Below, in pieces: positions 12,693-21,459 of a stretch of DNA of 64,000 nt. The notes beneath the pieces are model-generated. The model had not been told where the DNA came from and ran no database searches. It saw only the letters and a program-made list of their open reading frames with translations. The stretch spans positions 1 to 64,000 of the forward strand of contig JAATGM010000032.1 in the NCBI GenBank assembly GCA_015654675.1, read 5' to 3'. The number at the start of each line of letters is the position of its first letter. Position 1 is the stretch's first letter. This DNA comes from Planctomycetota bacterium (GTDB lineage Bacteria; Planctomycetota; Phycisphaerae; UBA1845; UTPLA1). Made by a program: the position numbers and the translations under genes.

Positions 12693-13916
12693 CTAGCCCT
12701 TCTTCGCCTTGGCCTTCTTCTCTTTGGGGGCCTTGGCCGGTTTCGCAGGCTTGGGCTTCTTCGGGGCCGATGGCTTGCCCACCATCCAGCCGACCATCCA
12801 CGCAACGCCCGCCAGCAACACCACGCCGCCGGCAAAGAAGTACAGGTTGGTCCCCGAATCGATCAGCCGCATGAAGCTCGGCCAGACGCCCTGAATCTGG
12901 CTCGTGGCCGCAAGCCCGACGATGCACAATGCCGCCATCGCAACGGCCGCCAACCCGGTGAAGGCCGGCCCCATCGGATCGAATACCATGTCGCCCGCGA
13001 CAGCCATGGTCGGCCCCGCGGAGACGACCGGCATTTCCTCTTCCTCGGCGCCGGAATCGTCCGCAGCCGGATACTCGTCGCTCGAAACCGTCTCGACCGC
13101 CTCGGCCTCGAGCGTCCCCGTGTCGCTCTCGATCGGCTCGGCAGCCGTCTCAGTTTCCGATCCTTCGCTCGGCGAAATAACGTCGAGCAGCTCGGCTCCC
13201 AGACTGGTGTCGTCGCTCTCGCGCGTCAGGTCGAGCAGGCCGCTGCCGCTCCCCACCGTCGCCATCTGCAGCTCTTCTTCGGCGACCGGCGAGATCTGGG
13301 TCTTTGCCAGCGGATCGGCCTCGCCATGCAGGTCGGCCTCTTCGAATACGCTGATACCACTTCCGGCCTTTGAGCCGGTCTTGCCCTTGGGTGGCGGCGC
13401 GATCGGCGCCGACGATTTCATTGACGAATCGTCGAGGGCAATCACGTCCGAGGCCGAAAGCCCGATGTCCAACTCGCTCGAATCGGTCAGCGCGATGGAG
13501 CTGCCCTCGCCGCTAAGATCGGCCGCAATCAGCGGCTCAGGAGCGGGCGGCGGTGCTTCCTTCTTCTTTGCAGCCGGCTTCGGCGCCGGTGTGGTGTCAA
13601 TGGCGGGTGACGGACCCAGATCCAGATCGATGCTCGATTCATCCAGTCCGAGCAGATTGATGTCTGAGGTCGGCTCAGGAACTGCCAGCTCGAGTTCCTC
13701 GGCCTGCGGCTCCTGGCCCGGTGCGCCGATATCCAGATCGACGATCGAGCTGCCCTCGTTTGCCACGATGCGCTCGATATCTTCGATCTTGAACACCATT
13801 GACCCGTCCTGGTCGTAACCCTGGACGCGGCCCTGGTTCACCATCTCGCTGACTTCGTCGGCCCCCACTCCGAGCACGTCAGCCGCTTCGTCCAGCGAAT
13901 AGAACTCTTTGGCCAT
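12693..13916 (-). CDS. HTH-domain protein with acidic linker and C-terminal membrane helices
   Basis: A 407-residue protein. Residues 1-52 (EFYSLDEAADVLGVGADEV) look like a MerR/excisionase-type winged helix, as used for DNA binding. A long acidic, Ser/Pro/Ala-rich linker with repeated SSxxDL motifs runs from about 55 to 310 and includes the block GLLDLTRESDDTSLGAELLD. Two membrane helices follow (about 318-338 and 357-380), then a Lys-rich tail of 27 residues. I recall the N-terminal domain and the LDLTRESDDTS block from planctomycete hypothetical proteins, but no function is established. The topology puts the HTH domain and basic tail on the same (cytoplasmic) side. It lies 12 bases downstream of the single-helix protein gene, so the two form an operon. 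Confidence 0.75.
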   Translation of the reverse strand: MAKEFYSLDEAADVLGVGADEVSEMVNQGRVQGYDQDGSMVFKIEDIERIVANEGSSIVDLDIGAPGQEPQAEELELAVPEPTSDINLLGLDESSIDLDLGPSPAIDTTPAPKPAAKKKEAPPPAPEPLIAADLSGEGSSIALTDSSELDIGLSASDVIALDDSSMKSSAPIAPPPKGKTGSKAGSGISVFEEADLHGEADPLAKTQISPVAEEELQMATVGSGSGLLDLTRESDDTSLGAELLDVISPSEGSETETAAEPIESDTGTLEAEAVETVSSDEYPAADDSGAEEEEMPVVSAGPTMAVAGDMVFDPMGPAFTGLAAVAMAALCIVGLAATSQIQGVWPSFMRLIDSGTNLYFFAGGVVLLAGVAWMVGWMVGKPSAPKKPKPAKPAKAPKEKKAKAKKG

Positions 13917-13928
13917 GAGCAGCGCTCC

Positions 13929-14624
13929 CTATGGATTCTTCGCCTGTCCCGGAGCCGTTTCAACCGCGCTATCGCGCTGTGACCCCACGGTCTCGATTTT
14001 CGCATCGTCGCCCAGTGCGTCTGCCGCCGCTGCGTCAGGGTCCTGAACATCGGGACGCGGCGCTAGAGGCGATGCCGAAACGGGCCCGTTCGGCATCGCA
14101 GAAGCGGCTGGCATGGTGTCATCCAGATCCTCCGTCCCAACAGTTGGGTTGCGTGCAGGCATCGCGGTCGCGGCGGGCGTTACTGTCGGAACGGGCGGCG
14201 CCGAGAAGCCCGTGTTCTGGCGGTTCTGTTGCCGCTCGAGCATTTCCCGGATTCTTTCGGGAGCCGTCACGTCGTCGTTATTGTGGTTCTCGAGATAGCG
14301 GTCGTACTTGAACGTTCGGGCACAGGCGAGCTTGAGCCGGTGCTTTGTCGGGTAATATTCATAAACCCAGACTGTCGAGTTATCCATGTCCATCATGAAC
14401 AGCCCATATTTGTCCCGGTCGAGCTGTCCGGTGAAGGCATGAATCCCATGCGTCCCCGTCATCGCCGTCTGCCCGAACGCCGCCCCCGAGAAACTCGGGT
14501 CGGGTCGCAGGAGTAGACAGGTCGCGATCACCGACAGGGCCACCGCGATAATCCAAGTCGCCACCGACCGCTGCGGTTGGATGACAATGGGACGCACGTC
14601 GTGCGAATGCTGCTCAGTTGTCAT
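13929..14624 (-). CDS. Single-helix membrane protein, planctomycete-type
   Basis: A 231-residue protein with about 20 cytoplasmic residues, one membrane helix (about 22-42) and an outer domain. Residues about 58-118 form a compact conserved-looking unit (GIHAFTGQLDRDKYGLFMMD, then VWVYEYYP and FKYDRYLENHN); the rest is low-complexity Pro/Ala/Asp. The conserved unit resembles a family I associate with planctomycete genomes, but its function is unknown. It is the first gene of a two-gene operon with the HTH/membrane protein; the pairing suggests a shared membrane complex. Confidence 0.7.
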   Translation of the reverse strand: MTTEQHSHDVRPIVIQPQRSVATWIIAVALSVIATCLLLRPDPSFSGAAFGQTAMTGTHGIHAFTGQLDRDKYGLFMMDMDNSTVWVYEYYPTKHRLKLACARTFKYDRYLENHNNDDVTAPERIREMLERQQNRQNTGFSAPPVPTVTPAATAMPARNPTVGTEDLDDTMPAASAMPNGPVSASPLAPRPDVQDPDAAAADALGDDAKIETVGSQRDSAVETAPGQAKNP

Positions 14625-14730: not shown

Positions 14731-16131
14731 GTGTCTCCCGTGGAATCCATCATCGAGCCCTCGCATCAACTGGACGCCGATCCGGTCATCCGGCCGATCG
14801 CCGCACCCGTGGATCGGATCGCGCTCCGCACCGCGGTGGCCAACCTTCCCGGCGGCTTCATCCTCGAATCCGTCGCCGCCGACCAGCGCCACGGCCGCTT
14901 CAGCTACTTCGGCTTCGATCCGCTCGAAGTGCTCGAAGTGCCGGCTGGCGCCGATCCATTCGCGCCGCTGGCCGCCGCCGTCCGGTCCCGGATTCAGCCG
15001 CGGCATGCGCGCCATATCCCATTTATCGGCGGTTGGTTGGGATATCTGGCGTATGAGGCCGGCTCTGCCATTGAGCCCACCGCACCGTCCCGGCGGGTTC
15101 TGCCGGGCCTGCCGATCGCCCGCTTCGCCCTGCACGACGCCGTCATCGTCGCCGACCACGCAACCAGCCGCTGGTATGTCGCCGGCCAGTCCCTGACGAG
15201 CGACCCGAACCGCCTTCCCAGCATGCTGGATAGATTGGCGGCCATTGCCTCCGACGCCCGCCCGGCAGCGAAAATGCCGACTCGCGCGATTCCTGCGCCA
15301 TCCCCCACCCGCGACATGACCCCCGACGAATACCGCCGCCGGGTCCGCCGCATCCTCGACTACATCGCCGCCGGCGACATTTTCCAGGTCAACTTCGCCC
15401 AGCGGTTCACCATCGCCTCGGCCGAGCCGGCCCCCGACCTCTACGCCCGCCTTTGCGATGCCAATCCGGCCAGCTTCGCCGCCTTTATCCCCACGGGGCA
15501 CGGCGCGGTGCTGTCGTCCTCGCCCGAACTCCTCATCGAATTGACCGGTCGCCGCGCCATCACCCGCCCGATCAAAGGCACGCGCCGCCGCACCGGCCGC
15601 GCCCCGGCCGACACCGCCGCGGCCGACGATCTCGCCCGCTCGGCCAAGGACGCCGCCGAACTGGCCATGATTGTCGACCTCGTCCGCAACGACCTCGGCC
15701 GCGTCTGCGAATTCGGCTCCGTCCGTGTCGACGACCCCGGCTCCATCGAAACCATGTCCACGGTCATGCATCGCGTCGCCACCGTCTCGGGCACGCTTCG
15801 CCAAGACCTCGACGCCATCGACCTGCTCCGCGCGCTGTTCCCCGGCGGCTCCGTCACCGGTGCCCCCAAGGTCCGCGCAATGCAGATCATCGACGAACTC
15901 GAAAACTCCCCGCGCGGCCCCTATTGCGGCGCCATCGGCTACATCGGCCTCGACGGCGACATGATGCTCAACCTCGCCATCCGCACGCTCGTCGCCATCG
16001 ACGGCCATGTCCACCTCTCCGTCGGCGGCGGCATCGTGGCCGACTCCGACCCCGACAAAGAGTACGATGAGACGCTCGCCAAGGCCGCCGGTATGCTGAC
16101 GGCCCTCGGCTGCCAACAGGATCCAAAATGA
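14731..16131 (+). CDS. pabB: Aminodeoxychorismate synthase component I
   Basis: A 466-residue chorismate-utilising enzyme. The C-terminal catalytic core shows GDIFQVNFAQRF, SSSPELLI, PIKGTRRR, ELAMIVDLVRNDLGRV, FPGGSVTGAPK and the glycine-rich VGGGIVADSDP. The PIKGT motif (Lys282) is the marker that separates PabB, which has this nucleophilic lysine, from anthranilate synthase TrpE, which has PIAGT. It makes 4-amino-4-deoxychorismate for p-aminobenzoate and folate, with ammonia from a PabA amidotransferase that is not in this window. The four-base overlap with pabC (ATGA at 16128) supports the assignment and shows translational coupling. Start is a GTG with AAGG a few bases upstream. Confidence 0.93.
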   Translation: MSPVESIIEPSHQLDADPVIRPIAAPVDRIALRTAVANLPGGFILESVAADQRHGRFSYFGFDPLEVLEVPAGADPFAPLAAAVRSRIQPRHARHIPFIGGWLGYLAYEAGSAIEPTAPSRRVLPGLPIARFALHDAVIVADHATSRWYVAGQSLTSDPNRLPSMLDRLAAIASDARPAAKMPTRAIPAPSPTRDMTPDEYRRRVRRILDYIAAGDIFQVNFAQRFTIASAEPAPDLYARLCDANPASFAAFIPTGHGAVLSSSPELLIELTGRRAITRPIKGTRRRTGRAPADTAAADDLARSAKDAAELAMIVDLVRNDLGRVCEFGSVRVDDPGSIETMSTVMHRVATVSGTLRQDLDAIDLLRALFPGGSVTGAPKVRAMQIIDELENSPRGPYCGAIGYIGLDGDMMLNLAIRTLVAIDGHVHLSVGGGIVADSDPDKEYDETLAKAAGMLTALGCQQDPK

Positions 16132-17003
16132 ACGAACTGGTCTTTCTGAACGGTGAAATCGTCGAGGCCTCGGCCGCCCGGCTGCCCGTCTCCGACGCGG
16201 GCCTCAGCCACGGCGCCGGCCTCTTCGAAACGGTTCGCGTCTACAACGCCAACCCTTTCAAGCTCGACGACCACCTCCGCCGCATGCGCCACTCGGGCAA
16301 AAAGCTCGGCATCGCCGTCCCGTGGGACGACGCCGAAATCACCCGCTCCGCCAGCCGCATCCTCCAGGCCAACGAGCTCCGCGAAGCTCGCCTCCGCATC
16401 ACCGTCACGCCCGGCGACCTCCGCGCCGGCCTGGCCGCCGAAGACGGAATCCCGCCCGCGACTCTGCTCATCACAGCCCAGAAGTTCGAGGCCTACTCCG
16501 CCGACTACTACCGAAAAGGCATGACCGTCTGCGTCAGCTCCTACAAGCAGAACAAGCACGACCCCACCACCGGCCACAAGACCGTCTCCTACTTCCCGCG
16601 CCTGCTCGCCCTCCGCGAGGCCCACGGCAAGCAATGCGGCGAAGCCCTCTGGTTCACGACCGACAATCAGCTCGCCGAGGGCTGCGTCAGCAACGTCTTC
16701 ATCATCAGCAAGGACAAGCTCCGCACCCCGCCGCTCGATACGCCCGTGCTGCCCGGCATCGCGCGGGCCATCACGCTGCAGTGCGCCGCCGCCCGCCAGA
16801 TCGAAGTCGTCGAGGAGCCGCTAACCATCAACGACCTGCTCGAAGCCGAGGAGGTCTTCCTCACCAATACCATCATGGAAATCCTGCCCGTCTGCCGCAT
16901 CGAGCGCCACCCAGTCAGCGACGAAACCGTCGGCGACTTCACCCGTACCCTTCGCGAGGCCTACTTCGAAGTCGTCCAGCAGGAGTGCCGCATCGGTGGC
17001 TAA
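16128..17003 (+). CDS. pabC: Aminodeoxychorismate lyase (class IV aminotransferase fold)
   Basis: A 291-residue fold-type IV PLP enzyme. Visible are GAGLFETVRVYN near the N-terminus, the PLP-binding Lys151 in HKTVSYFPRLLALREA, AEGCVSNVF and FLTNTIMEILPV near the C-terminus. PabC removes pyruvate from aminodeoxychorismate to give p-aminobenzoate. D-amino-acid and branched-chain aminotransferases share the fold; the direct overlap with pabB decides for PabC. It overlaps the next gene by eight bases. Confidence 0.9.
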   Translation: MNELVFLNGEIVEASAARLPVSDAGLSHGAGLFETVRVYNANPFKLDDHLRRMRHSGKKLGIAVPWDDAEITRSASRILQANELREARLRITVTPGDLRAGLAAEDGIPPATLLITAQKFEAYSADYYRKGMTVCVSSYKQNKHDPTTGHKTVSYFPRLLALREAHGKQCGEALWFTTDNQLAEGCVSNVFIISKDKLRTPPLDTPVLPGIARAITLQCAAARQIEVVEEPLTINDLLEAEEVFLTNTIMEILPVCRIERHPVSDETVGDFTRTLREAYFEVVQQECRIGG

Positions 17004-18144
17004 AGCGCGGTCGAGGCCGACCGAAACCATCTGGTCGGTCTCGCAGACTCTCGGCCAGATCGCGCCGGTCCGCTTGGCGGCGGAATGGGATAACGTCGGA
17101 TTGCTCGTGGGATCAGCGCGATGGCCCTGTCGTCGCGCCCTCGTGACGGTGGATCTGACGCCGCTCGTCCTGAACGAAGCTCGCAAACTGAAGTGCGATT
17201 TGATCGTTTCTTACCATCCGCCGATTTTCAAACCGGTAAAGTCCATGCTTGCCGGAGAGTGGACGTCAGAAGGTCTCGCTGCGGAGGCGCTCGCCAACAA
17301 AATCGCCATTTACTCTCCGCACACCGCCTGGGACGCGGCCGCCGGCGGGACGAACGACACACTCGCCGCCCTGTGCGGAGTTCAAGCCAGTCGGCCATTC
17401 ACCTTCGCCCGAGCCACGCCATTCAAAGAATGCAAATTCGTCGTCTTCGTTCCGTCCGAGCATGTCGATCGTGTTGCTGACGCGATGTTCGGGGCGGGTG
17501 CCGGAGATATCGGCAACTACACGCACTGCAGCTTCCGATCTCCGGGTGAGGGCTCGTTCTTCGGCAACGAGTCAACCGATCCCAAAGTTGGCCAGCGCGG
17601 CCGGCTCGAGCGTGTCAGCGAGATTCGCTTGGAGGCGATCGCGCCCGAGCATCTGGTAACTGAAATCACGCAGGCGCTTCGCCGGAGCCATCCTTATGAA
17701 GAGCCCGCATTCGATATCTTTCCGTTGAGTGCCCGTGCCTCTCCCAGACTCGGTCAGGGTCGGATCGGCCGGCTGCCCCGCGCAATGTCGCTAGCGAATC
17801 TCGCGGCACTGCTTCGGCGAAAGGCAAACGCGAAGACCGTGTCGTTTGTCGGCAGCCCGCGCTCGCAGGCGCACCAAATCTACGTTTGCGTCGGCGCGGC
17901 CGGTTCGCTGCCGTTCGATATTCAGGATGATGTGCTTGAGCCGGGAGACGTCGTCATCACCGGCGAAATCCGCCACCACGACGCCCTCCGCTACCTTCGC
18001 GAAGGCACCTCCGCCATCGCCCTCGGCCACTGGGCCAGCGAGCGCCCTGGCGTGGCCGAGCTCGCTCGCCGGCTCAAGCTGGAATTGCCCCGACTCGATG
18101 TCCGCCTCTCAAAGGCCGACCGCGACCCGTTTTCACCCGCGTGA
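16996..18144 (+). CDS. NIF3-family dinuclear metal protein (GTP cyclohydrolase 1 type 2 homologue)
   Basis: A 382-residue NIF3/YqfO-type protein. The metal-site motifs are present: AAEWDNVGLLVG, VTVDLTPLVLNEA, DLIVSYHPPIF, YSPHTAWDAAAGGTNDTLA, GDVVITGEIRHHDAL and ALGHWASERPG. A central PII/CutA-like insert (about 140-250, with RRSHPYEEPAFDI) matches the long Bacillus-type members of about 370 residues. The family is usually of unknown role, though some members are annotated as GTP cyclohydrolase homologues. Here the GTG start lies inside pabC, eight bases before its end, tying the gene to p-aminobenzoate synthesis. AGGAG sits ten bases before the start. Confidence 0.92.
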   Translation: MAKARSRPTETIWSVSQTLGQIAPVRLAAEWDNVGLLVGSARWPCRRALVTVDLTPLVLNEARKLKCDLIVSYHPPIFKPVKSMLAGEWTSEGLAAEALANKIAIYSPHTAWDAAAGGTNDTLAALCGVQASRPFTFARATPFKECKFVVFVPSEHVDRVADAMFGAGAGDIGNYTHCSFRSPGEGSFFGNESTDPKVGQRGRLERVSEIRLEAIAPEHLVTEITQALRRSHPYEEPAFDIFPLSARASPRLGQGRIGRLPRAMSLANLAALLRRKANAKTVSFVGSPRSQAHQIYVCVGAAGSLPFDIQDDVLEPGDVVITGEIRHHDALRYLREGTSAIALGHWASERPGVAELARRLKLELPRLDVRLSKADRDPFSPA

Positions 18145-18155
18145 GGGTTTTCTGC

Positions 18156-19319
18156 ATGCGCCGATCGCCGCTCATTTCCGCCTCGCTCGCCGCCACCGCC
18201 GCATTGCTCGCGCTGTCAGCGGGCTGCGAACAACCCAAGCCCGACACGTCAGTCACGCAGGCCTGGTCCGACCTCCGCCGCAACGAAGCCAACGCCGGCA
18301 CCGAGTCGCAGCCCGCCGAATCGCAAACTGCTGCAAACGGCGCCGCACCGAACGCCGGCGGCAATCCCTCTGCTCTCCCCCCGGCCGGTAACCCATCGCC
18401 CGTCTCTCAATTCACGACCGGCGCCGCGAAAAAATCCGAGCCAATCGCCTACGTCAACGGCAAACCCATCGAACGCGAAGCCGTCGTCAGCATCCTCATC
18501 GAAGGCCACGGCCTCGGCGTATTGCAGCAGGTGGTCGCGCTCGAAGCGGTTCGGCAGGCAGCCGAGAAACGCGGCATCCGCATCCGCGAAGTCGATATCG
18601 ACAACGAATATGACTACACGATCTACAGCCCCCAATTGCAGGGCGACAGCAGCGCGCTCCTTAGCCCAATCCGCAAAAAGGAACTGATCCAACTCTGGCT
18701 GCGGCGCACCGGTGTCTCGGCCTCCGAGCTCCGCCTCGCCATGGTCCGCCAGGCCTACCTTCGCAAGCTGGCCGCCGATCGCGTGACGATCAGCGAAGAC
18801 GCCATCCGCCTCGAATACGAACGCCAGTGCGGCGAAAAGGTCATCGCGCGGCACATCCAGCTGGCCGCCCTCAGGGACTACGACCAACTCCACGCCCGCA
18901 TTGTCGCCGGCGACGACTTCGCCGCGCTCGCCGCGCGGTTCAGCATCAACGAGGCCACCAGCCGCGACGGCGGCCTGCTTCCACCCTTCTCCGCCGGTGA
19001 TCTTCGCGTTCCCAAGACGCTCCGCGAGGCCGCGTTCCAGTTAAAGGTCGGCCAGACCAGCGACCCGATCGCCTTCGAAGGCCACTACCACGTCATCCGC
19101 GTCGAGCAGCGCACCCCGCGTTGCAATCAAACCATCGACGCCATGCGCGAGCAGCTCATGCGCAGCATTCGCAACCGGCAAACCGCCGATCAGATGGATC
19201 AGATTTCGCTCGATCTTCAAAGCCAGTCGCGGCTCAAAATCACCGACAAGGCCCTGCGCGAGCGCTACGATTCCGAACGTGCCGCCGGTAAAGTCACCGG
19301 TCCCGCGCTGGAGCGCTGA
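18156..19319 (+). CDS. Parvulin-type peptidyl-prolyl isomerase lipoprotein
   Basis: About 387 residues. A signal segment ends in LSAGC, a lipobox, so the protein should be anchored at the outer face of a membrane. A Pro/Ala-rich linker (about 25-95) precedes a SurA-like helical N-domain, then a parvulin domain at about 230-330 (KVIARHIQLAAL, FAALAARFS, SRDGGLLPPF, GHYHVIRVEQR). It probably helps fold exported proteins. The ATG at 18156 is chosen because GAGGG lies eight bases before it; a GTG at 18141 overlapping the upstream stop as GTGA is the alternative. Confidence 0.85.
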   Translation: MRRSPLISASLAATAALLALSAGCEQPKPDTSVTQAWSDLRRNEANAGTESQPAESQTAANGAAPNAGGNPSALPPAGNPSPVSQFTTGAAKKSEPIAYVNGKPIEREAVVSILIEGHGLGVLQQVVALEAVRQAAEKRGIRIREVDIDNEYDYTIYSPQLQGDSSALLSPIRKKELIQLWLRRTGVSASELRLAMVRQAYLRKLAADRVTISEDAIRLEYERQCGEKVIARHIQLAALRDYDQLHARIVAGDDFAALAARFSINEATSRDGGLLPPFSAGDLRVPKTLREAAFQLKVGQTSDPIAFEGHYHVIRVEQRTPRCNQTIDAMREQLMRSIRNRQTADQMDQISLDLQSQSRLKITDKALRERYDSERAAGKVTGPALER

Positions 19320-19366: not shown

Positions 19367-20485
19367 ATGTGTACTGACTCGCACGGCTCGCCGCCCGTGA
19401 TCGTCCAGATGATACCCCGCATGATAAAGGTCGCGTCCTTGCCCGACATTCCCGCTGTCGTCAACAACCTCCCCGAGGCATGGGCCTTCTGCCACGCGAT
19501 TCTCCCCGATGTCTCGCGCACATTCGCGCTCAACATCCCCGTCCTGCCGCCCCGCCTGCGCGACAGCGTCTGCTGCGCCTATCTGCTCTGCCGTATCGCC
19601 GACACCATCGAGGATACCGAGACACTGCCGGCGCCCACGCGCCGCGCGCTCTACGACGCGCTGAACCGTGCCGTCGATCCGGCTCGCCCCCAGCCGACCG
19701 ACCTGCCCGGCTTCGCGCAACACGCCGCCAGCGCCGCCGAGGCCTATGCCCGGCTCATCGCCGGCGCGCCGCTGGTCCTGAGCGCCTTCGCCAGTCTTCC
19801 GCCCGCGTCGCGCGCCGCGATTGCCGAATGCGTCCGCGAAATGATCGCCGGAATGCGATCCCCGACGGCTCGCGGCCGCGAGGCCGGCATCCGCTTCATC
19901 GCGGCCGACTTCGCCGATCTTGATACCTATTGCCACTTCGTCGCCGGCACCGTCGGCGTCATGCTGACGCGTCTCTTCTCGAGCGAGCTGGGCGAGCCAC
20001 CCGGCCTCGCCACCGCCCGCACGCGTGAACTCGGTCGGCGGTTCGGATTGGGGCTTCAGGCCACCAACATCATCAAAGATCACGCCGATGACGTCGCCCG
20101 CGGCGTCTGCTTCGTCCCGCGCACCAGCGTCGGGCCGGCCGCCGATCGCTGCCCCATCACCCAGCCCCAGAGAGACGTTCTCATTCGGCACGCCGTCGAT
20201 CACCTCGACCGCGCCATGGAATTCGTCCTGCTCATTCCGCATCAGGCCGACGGCATTCGGCTCTTTTGCCTCTGGGCCCTGATGCTCGCGCTCGGCACGC
20301 TGCGCGAAGCCGCCAAAGCCGAGTCGCCGACCCCCAAGGTCGCCCGCTCCGAAGTGGCTAAAATCCTCTCCGACAGCCGCCGGTTCGTCGCCGACGATAC
20401 CCGGCTGCTCGCCTGGTTTGGCGACTATCGCAACCAGGTTGCCGCGGCCCTGAGCGCCGCCGCCAATGGAGCGACGCACGCATGA
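19367..20485 (+). CDS. Squalene synthase-type head-to-head prenyl synthase
   Basis: A trans-isoprenyl diphosphate synthase of the squalene/phytoene family. SRTFALNIPVLP, the first Asp-rich motif RIADTIEDT, YCHFVAGTVG, and the second motif TNIIKDHADDVARG with the following CFVP are seen. The YCHFVAG and LQATNII forms resemble eukaryote-type squalene synthase more than the bacterial HpnC/HpnD pair. It would condense two farnesyl diphosphates to squalene, a hopanoid or sterol precursor. The start is uncertain: the N-terminal 40 residues before LPEAWAFCHAILP are poorly family-like, and ATGs at 19409 and 19421 are alternatives. The ispH gene overlaps its end by four bases. Confidence 0.85.
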   Translation: MCTDSHGSPPVIVQMIPRMIKVASLPDIPAVVNNLPEAWAFCHAILPDVSRTFALNIPVLPPRLRDSVCCAYLLCRIADTIEDTETLPAPTRRALYDALNRAVDPARPQPTDLPGFAQHAASAAEAYARLIAGAPLVLSAFASLPPASRAAIAECVREMIAGMRSPTARGREAGIRFIAADFADLDTYCHFVAGTVGVMLTRLFSSELGEPPGLATARTRELGRRFGLGLQATNIIKDHADDVARGVCFVPRTSVGPAADRCPITQPQRDVLIRHAVDHLDRAMEFVLLIPHQADGIRLFCLWALMLALGTLREAAKAESPTPKVARSEVAKILSDSRRFVADDTRLLAWFGDYRNQVAAALSAAANGATHA

Positions 20486-21459
20486 GAGTGGTCCTTGCCG
20501 AACCCCGCGGCTTCTGTGCCGGCGTCGAACGCGCCGTCAAAATTGTCGAGCTCGCCCTCGAGCTCTATGGCCCGCCGGTCTACGTCCGCCGCGAAATCGT
20601 CCACAACAGCCACGTCGTCCGCCGCCTGCGCGAACTCGGCGCCGTTTTCGTCGACGAAGTGCAGGAGGTCCCCGATGGCGGACACGTCATCTTCTCGGCC
20701 CACGGCGTCGCCCCGGGCGTCTTCGACGCGGCCAAGGCGCGAAAGCTCAACATCATCGACGCTACTTGCCCGCTCGTGGCCAAGGTTCATCTGGAAGTCG
20801 ATCGCTTCGTCCGTCACGGCTATCACATCATCCTGATTGGCCATGCCGGCCACGACGAAGTCGTCGGCACCGTCGGCCACGCGCCGAACGCCATCACCCT
20901 CGTTTCAGATGTCGAGCAAGCTCGCACTCGCCCCGTCCCAGCGCATGAAAAGCTGATCGTGCTCACGCAGACCACCCTTGGCATCGACGACACCGCCGAC
21001 ATCCTCGCCGCCCTGCGGCAGCGCTTCCCCGAACTCGAACTGCCCCCGACCGACGACATCTGCTATGCCACGCAGAATCGCCAAAATTCCGTCAAGGCCA
21101 TGGCCCAGGACGGTGTCGACGTCGTCCTGGTGGTCGGTTCGCAAAATTCGTCAAACGCCCAGCGCCTGGTCGAGGTCGCCAAGGCCCGCGGCATGCGCGG
21201 CTACCTCATCGACGCCGCCGCCGACATCCAAGCCGACTGGCTCGAAAACGCCCGCACCGTCGGCGTCACGGCCGGCGCGTCAACGCCTGAAGCTGTTGTT
21301 CAGGATGTTCTTGCTCGGCTGCAAGCACTGGGTGGCACCGATGTCGTCCGGCTGACGACGGTGGAAGAAGACACTGTTTTTTCCCTGCCCCCGGGTCTTC
21401 GACATGTCGCGCTGAACGTCTCTCCCCGCCTTCAAAATATCACCGCCGGCAAGCGTTGA
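20482..21459 (+). CDS. ispH: 4-hydroxy-3-methylbut-2-enyl diphosphate reductase
   Basis: A 325-residue IspH (LytB), the last enzyme of the MEP pathway, which makes IPP and DMAPP. The three cluster-binding cysteines are at 12 (EPRGFCAGVERA), 96 (DATCPLV) and 194 (DICYATQNRQ). Substrate-binding motifs include REIVHNSHVV, FSAHGVAP, GHAGHDEVVG, TQTTLGIDDT and VGSQNSSN. The ATG overlaps the squalene synthase stop as ATGA. The pair thus joins the final step of C5 precursor synthesis with a C30 product step. Confidence 0.97.
   Translation: MRVVLAEPRGFCAGVERAVKIVELALELYGPPVYVRREIVHNSHVVRRLRELGAVFVDEVQEVPDGGHVIFSAHGVAPGVFDAAKARKLNIIDATCPLVAKVHLEVDRFVRHGYHIILIGHAGHDEVVGTVGHAPNAITLVSDVEQARTRPVPAHEKLIVLTQTTLGIDDTADILAALRQRFPELELPPTDDICYATQNRQNSVKAMAQDGVDVVLVVGSQNSSNAQRLVEVAKARGMRGYLIDAAADIQADWLENARTVGVTAGASTPEAVVQDVLARLQALGGTDVVRLTTVEEDTVFSLPPGLRHVALNVSPRLQNITAGKR

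Follow-up and report, generated by a model that had tools for sequence, protein, structure and literature searches.

Why should a gene of the DUF34/NIF3 family, which is found in all domains of life, has no agreed function and counts thousands of members labelled with a disputed GTP cyclohydrolase activity, lie in tight overlap behind the two genes for p-aminobenzoate (pABA) synthesis? The question is posed by positions 14731–19319 of the window, i.e. of the whole stretch of 64,000 nucleotides that was analysed. Other bacteria also encode PabB and PabC together, sometimes with folate genes; what distinguishes the present locus from such operons is NIF3 as a third, overlapping gene. A tight link of this kind to the pABA half of folate synthesis, which seems to have formed repeatedly, gives the family a concrete pathway, distinct from the GTP step, in which a role can be tested.

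Anatomy of the locus

Four open reading frames, all on the + strand, make up the segment: pabB (14731–16131; aminodeoxychorismate synthase component I, 466 aa), pabC (16128–17003; a class IV PLP enzyme of 291 aa), a NIF3/DUF34 gene of the YqfO type (16996–18144; 382 aa, with a CutA/PII-like insert) and a gene for a parvulin-type peptidyl-prolyl isomerase (18141–19319; a probable lipoprotein of 392 aa). The overlaps of 4 and 8 bases described in the earlier note were read directly from the sequence, as ATGA at 16128–16131 (pabB/pabC) and GTGGCTAA at 16996–17003 (pabC/NIF3), and the parvulin gene, which had been said to follow closely, even overlaps NIF3 by the 4 bases GTGA at 18141–18144. Inspection also revealed AGGAG at 16981–16985, ahead of the NIF3 start. 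The position of the parvulin gene after NIF3 is conserved in two families (f1 and f5), and it too is coupled here, unless its translation begins at an alternative in-frame start, the ATG at 18156, that leads into a lipoprotein-like signal. At the other end, pabB is divergent from a gene at 13929–14624 (− strand) and lies about 106 bases away from it, so the unit starts with pabB; a promoter scan upstream of pabB gave no + strand promoter match. The segment is thus laid out as a pABA operon of the order pabB-pabC-NIF3(-parvulin).

How firm are these names? The pabB product matches the Chorismate_bind profile of Pfam (6.9e-87) and TIGR00553 (345.7 bits, cut-off 328.4), with aminodeoxychorismate synthase 4grh as its best solved match (5e-81). 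It carries the motif PIKGT, the lysine of which, as opposed to the PIAGT or PLAGT of TrpE, is an established enzymological hallmark of PabB; a second chorismate-binding enzyme in this genome (L215) has the TrpE-like PLAGT, and PIKGT recurs in every pabC-NIF3-linked locus where the available DNA covered the motif. The identities of PabB, of NIF3 and of the parvulin (Rotamase profile of Pfam, 4.5e-11) are firm. The pabC product matches Aminotran_4 (3.8e-59) and scores below the cut-off of every curated class IV model listed, and its name therefore rests on context: given the overlap with pabB, and since the one further class IV enzyme in this genome belongs to the branched-chain aminotransferases (402.8 bits, cut-off 363), it is most likely aminodeoxychorismate lyase.

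The flanks hold a few further features. The genes at 12693–13916 and 13929–14624 (−), divergent from pabB, keep their position within the same family; one of their products has a weak HTH_17 match and the other none in Pfam. Just past the parvulin gene, a squalene/phytoene synthase-like gene (19367–20485, +) overlaps ispH (20482–21459, +) by 4 bases, a pair that was not found beside NIF3 in the relatives whose neighbouring loci were compared, the same family included.

Distribution of the pabC-NIF3 pair

NIF3 and PabC were located genome-wide in 150 Phycisphaerae genomes, and both were found in 130. In 82 of the 130, pabC lies directly upstream of NIF3 on the same strand, a recurrence that places the adjacency beyond chance; the linkage spans 14 of 24 families and is absent from the other ten. 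The survey of NIF3 neighbours that the earlier note had called for has thus turned up the pab linkage in relatives within the class. Upstream DNA sufficed to look for pabB in 37 linked loci, of which 26 have it adjacent, 2 have it nearby and 9 have it in neither place, and family f8, whose examined loci have no adjacent pabB, keeps pabC-NIF3 in 20 of its 22 genomes. The pair pabC-NIF3 is therefore the most persistent part of the locus, outlasting the adjacency of pabB. In the NIF3 tree, one clade holds nearly all linked rows (60 linked, 20 unlinked) and stands beside a clade of unlinked Phycisphaerae, which is consistent with one old gain in the class followed by losses.

Other folate genes come near NIF3 on rare occasions. 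In one genome (G018), folK overlaps pabC ahead of NIF3, with folE and a PTPS homologue about 10 kb away; in another (G149), folK directly follows NIF3 and pabC lies elsewhere. Both are single cases, folK being adjacent only in these two in a genome-wide search, which never placed folP next to NIF3 among the matches listed; folE is unlinked to NIF3 in nearly all genomes. The folK product of G018 (L217:5300-6394) is an HPPK fused to a deoxynucleoside kinase domain, and HPPK open frames of about 360–413 aa in families f16, f18, f20 and f22 suggest that this fusion is common to related families. In f18, f20 and f22, the chromosome segregation gene scpB directly follows NIF3 (16 loci, including L002–L011, L013, L019, L021 and L022).

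What of the linkage outside the class? Among Planctomycetota of other classes, NIF3 was found in 48 of 137 genomes, and forty NIF3 loci of other Planctomycetota all lacked a directly adjacent pabC. The one exception in an organism-named scan is an Isosphaeraceae contig (L211), on which pabB (with PIKGT), pabC and NIF3 follow in tight order, and a further search yielded a second Isosphaeraceae-type genome with pabB-pabC-NIF3 (G494, contig L221). Against a profile of Phycisphaerae PabC, the PabC proteins of these two score 165–174 bits, compared with 231 for the branched-chain aminotransferase of the present genome, and a tree that unites the linked NIF3 proteins of Phycisphaerae and Isosphaeraceae in one clade is rejected (p-AU 2e-6). 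The rejection of one clade also disposes of a single operon transferred between the two groups, and together with the divergent PabC it means that the arrangement is not the product of a single recent transfer. It seems that pabB-pabC-NIF3 was assembled independently at least twice, which is a simpler reading than ancestral presence of the three genes with many losses. No pab linkage was found at the NIF3 loci examined in Bacillota, Bacteroidota and Desulfuromonadota. Apparent linkage in metagenome-assembled genomes titled Deltaproteobacteria or Alphaproteobacteria was set aside as misnamed, their NIF3 grouping with Phycisphaerae in the tree. The same grouping is seen for the NIF3 of L136, L141, L144 and L153, whose records bear the titles Alphaproteobacteria, Deltaproteobacteria, Myxococcales and Blastopirellula marina and are probably misnamed or chimeric bins.

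The protein is of a known kind; its gene context was not found in the literature examined. The main text of the 2021 DUF34 survey (PMC8469502) never mentions pab, COG0115 or COG0147, an earlier mention in its supplementary tables being possible; its follow-up paper mentions neither pabB nor pabC, and titles and abstracts combining NIF3 with aminodeoxychorismate included no relevant paper.

The NIF3 protein and the enzymes of the GTP step

The NIF3 gene is single-copy in the genome, and DUF34_NIF3 (PF01784; 192.8 bits, cut-off 23.4, 1.1e-56) is the sole Pfam match of its product, which also exceeds the cut-off of TIGR00486 (147.4 bits, cut-off 130.55). An AlphaFold2 model (mean pLDDT 89) displays the NIF3 fold, interrupted by an insert of the CutA/PII type; a fold search with it ranks 2gx8 and SA1388 first, with CutA and GlnK next for the insert. 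Judging from this model, the protein is a normal YqfO-type member, whose two NIF3 halves flank a PII/CutA-like insert. The layout of NIF3-N, PII-like insert and NIF3-C is shared with YqfO of Bacillus cereus (2gx8; full-length match 1.9e-61) and SA1388 of S. aureus (3lnl/2nyd; full-length match 1.4e-42). The latter is described as a ring-shaped hexamer with PII-like lids as caps and a two-zinc site of five His, one Glu and one Asp (PMC1779786). E. coli YbgI (1nmo) and M. jannaschii HcgD (3wsd) likewise belong to the NIF3 family and have a dinuclear metal site, but they lack the PII-like insert, match only part of the sequence and occur in other gene contexts.

The predicted metal-site residues H74, H109, D113, H345 and E349 are invariant in the alignment. 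What separates the protein from YqfO and SA1388, besides a pabB-pabC context that none of the examined Bacillota NIF3 loci shares, is the first His of the HH pair, replaced here by Y73 (encoded by 17212–17214 of the window). The same Tyr occurs in 84 of 91 Phycisphaerae loci, a change at the level of the class; most of the other loci examined have HH at this metal site. As a marker of pab linkage it was rejected: the Tyr is nearly class-wide and present in unlinked families, and two linked loci (L012 and L059) keep the His.

The earlier note had proposed checking for FolE. A canonical FolE of type IA is encoded by a separate gene of the same genome (G000:C45:55182-55712), as are FolK and FolP, and the NIF3 protein has no profile match to FolE (PF01227) or FolE2 (PF02649). 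Across the class, FolE or FolE2 occurs in 146 of 150 genomes, the two being nearly complementary in distribution (FolE1 above its curated cut-off in 110, a strong FolE2 match in 42, both in 6), and three of the four genomes with neither are less than 77% complete. The pabC-NIF3 linkage is seen in 62 genomes that have FolE but not FolE2 and in 17 that have FolE2 alone. The folate reading of the locus was to fall if a normal FolE came together with an absence of NIF3-pab linkage in relatives; a normal FolE is indeed present, but the relatives clearly have the linkage.

Possible roles beside the pABA branch

What, then, might NIF3 do next to PabB and PabC? The reading that we prefer, with a probability of roughly 50%, is that it is co-expressed with the pABA/folate branch and serves it as a metal-dependent accessory, more probably through action on a small molecule than through insertion of metal. 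The identities of the genes, their overlaps, the conserved and repeated linkage and the separate FolE are observed; the functional tie, the chemistry and the substrate are what we infer. Judging from the anatomy, translation of NIF3 is most likely coupled to that of PabC through the gene overlap. By homology to solved family members, the product would assemble into a hexameric ring that holds a two-metal site and carries PII/CutA-like lids, which may gate access. It would there perform a metal-dependent accessory step beside the branch, for example by disposing of a side product or intermediate, or by converting it, the substrate being of low certainty. PabB, PabC and HPPK are Mg2+ or PLP enzymes with, to our knowledge, no need for an inserted transition metal, and metal insertion therefore explains the neighbourhood poorly; these metal needs, together with the linkage in both FolE-only and FolE2-only genomes, favour a small-molecule role over metal delivery.

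The accessory reading finds support in the persistence of pabC-NIF3, its repeated formation, the adjacency of folK and a published genetic interaction between ybgI and folE in E. coli, which the survey left unexplained and which a pABA link would fit (Reed et al. 2021, PMC8469502). It is weakened by the ten unlinked families of the class, by the unlinked loci examined in Bacillota, Bacteroidota and Desulfuromonadota, and by the occurrence of NIF3 in only 48 of the 137 other Planctomycetota, so that the pathway can presumably do without it. Of the earlier note, a role near folate may fairly be retained, in view of an old and conserved direct coupling to pABA genes that seems to have arisen at least twice; the hint at a GTP cyclohydrolase is not supported. 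That NIF3 itself catalyses a metal-dependent pABA/folate step in Phycisphaerae and some Isosphaeraceae (e.g. dephosphorylation of a dihydroneopterin phosphate, or the repair of by-products of the pABA pathway) is a long shot; if true, it would assign a pathway-level function to a bacterial DUF34 protein.

Could NIF3 be simply a metal protein with a housekeeping task that entered the pab operon once per group, in Phycisphaerae and in Isosphaeraceae, and was kept there for its expression with no link to the pathway? This is a serious, if tentative, possibility: nearly all linked rows fall into one NIF3 clade, as one gain and many losses would have it, and the neighbours of NIF3 elsewhere are varied (e.g. 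ScpB and short-chain dehydrogenases). Such a history sits less well with a pabC-NIF3 pair that outlasts the loss of other neighbours, with a union with pabB-pabC that apparently formed at least twice, and with a folK adjacency that arises separately.

Compared with the accessory reading, it is improbable that NIF3 acts as the metal chaperone or insertase proposed for the family by Reed et al. (2021), metallating a pathway enzyme such as the zinc-dependent FolE, even though the dinuclear metal site is conserved and the family-level proposal and the ybgI-folE interaction point that way (PMC8469502). The linkage does not track FolE type, an indifference on which FolE-specific metallation was rejected, and folE is hardly ever linked to NIF3. 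PabB and PabC, as is generally known, use Mg2+ and PLP.

The same survey judged a folate role for DUF34 to be precluded, chiefly by way of GTP cyclohydrolase activity tests, and recorded DUF34 proteins in folate auxotrophs as well (Reed et al. 2021, PMC8469502). That NIF3 is the GTP cyclohydrolase opening the folate pathway, or a replacement for it, as the disputed database label has it, is hardly credible and is not supported for this cell: a lone in vitro report on H. pylori HP0959 speaks for it (cited in PMC8469502), but the reading fails because nearly all these bacteria already own FolE or FolE2, ybgI cannot stand in for folE in E. coli (PMC8469502), and the top solved matches of the NIF3 model are NIF3 proteins and CutA/PII only.
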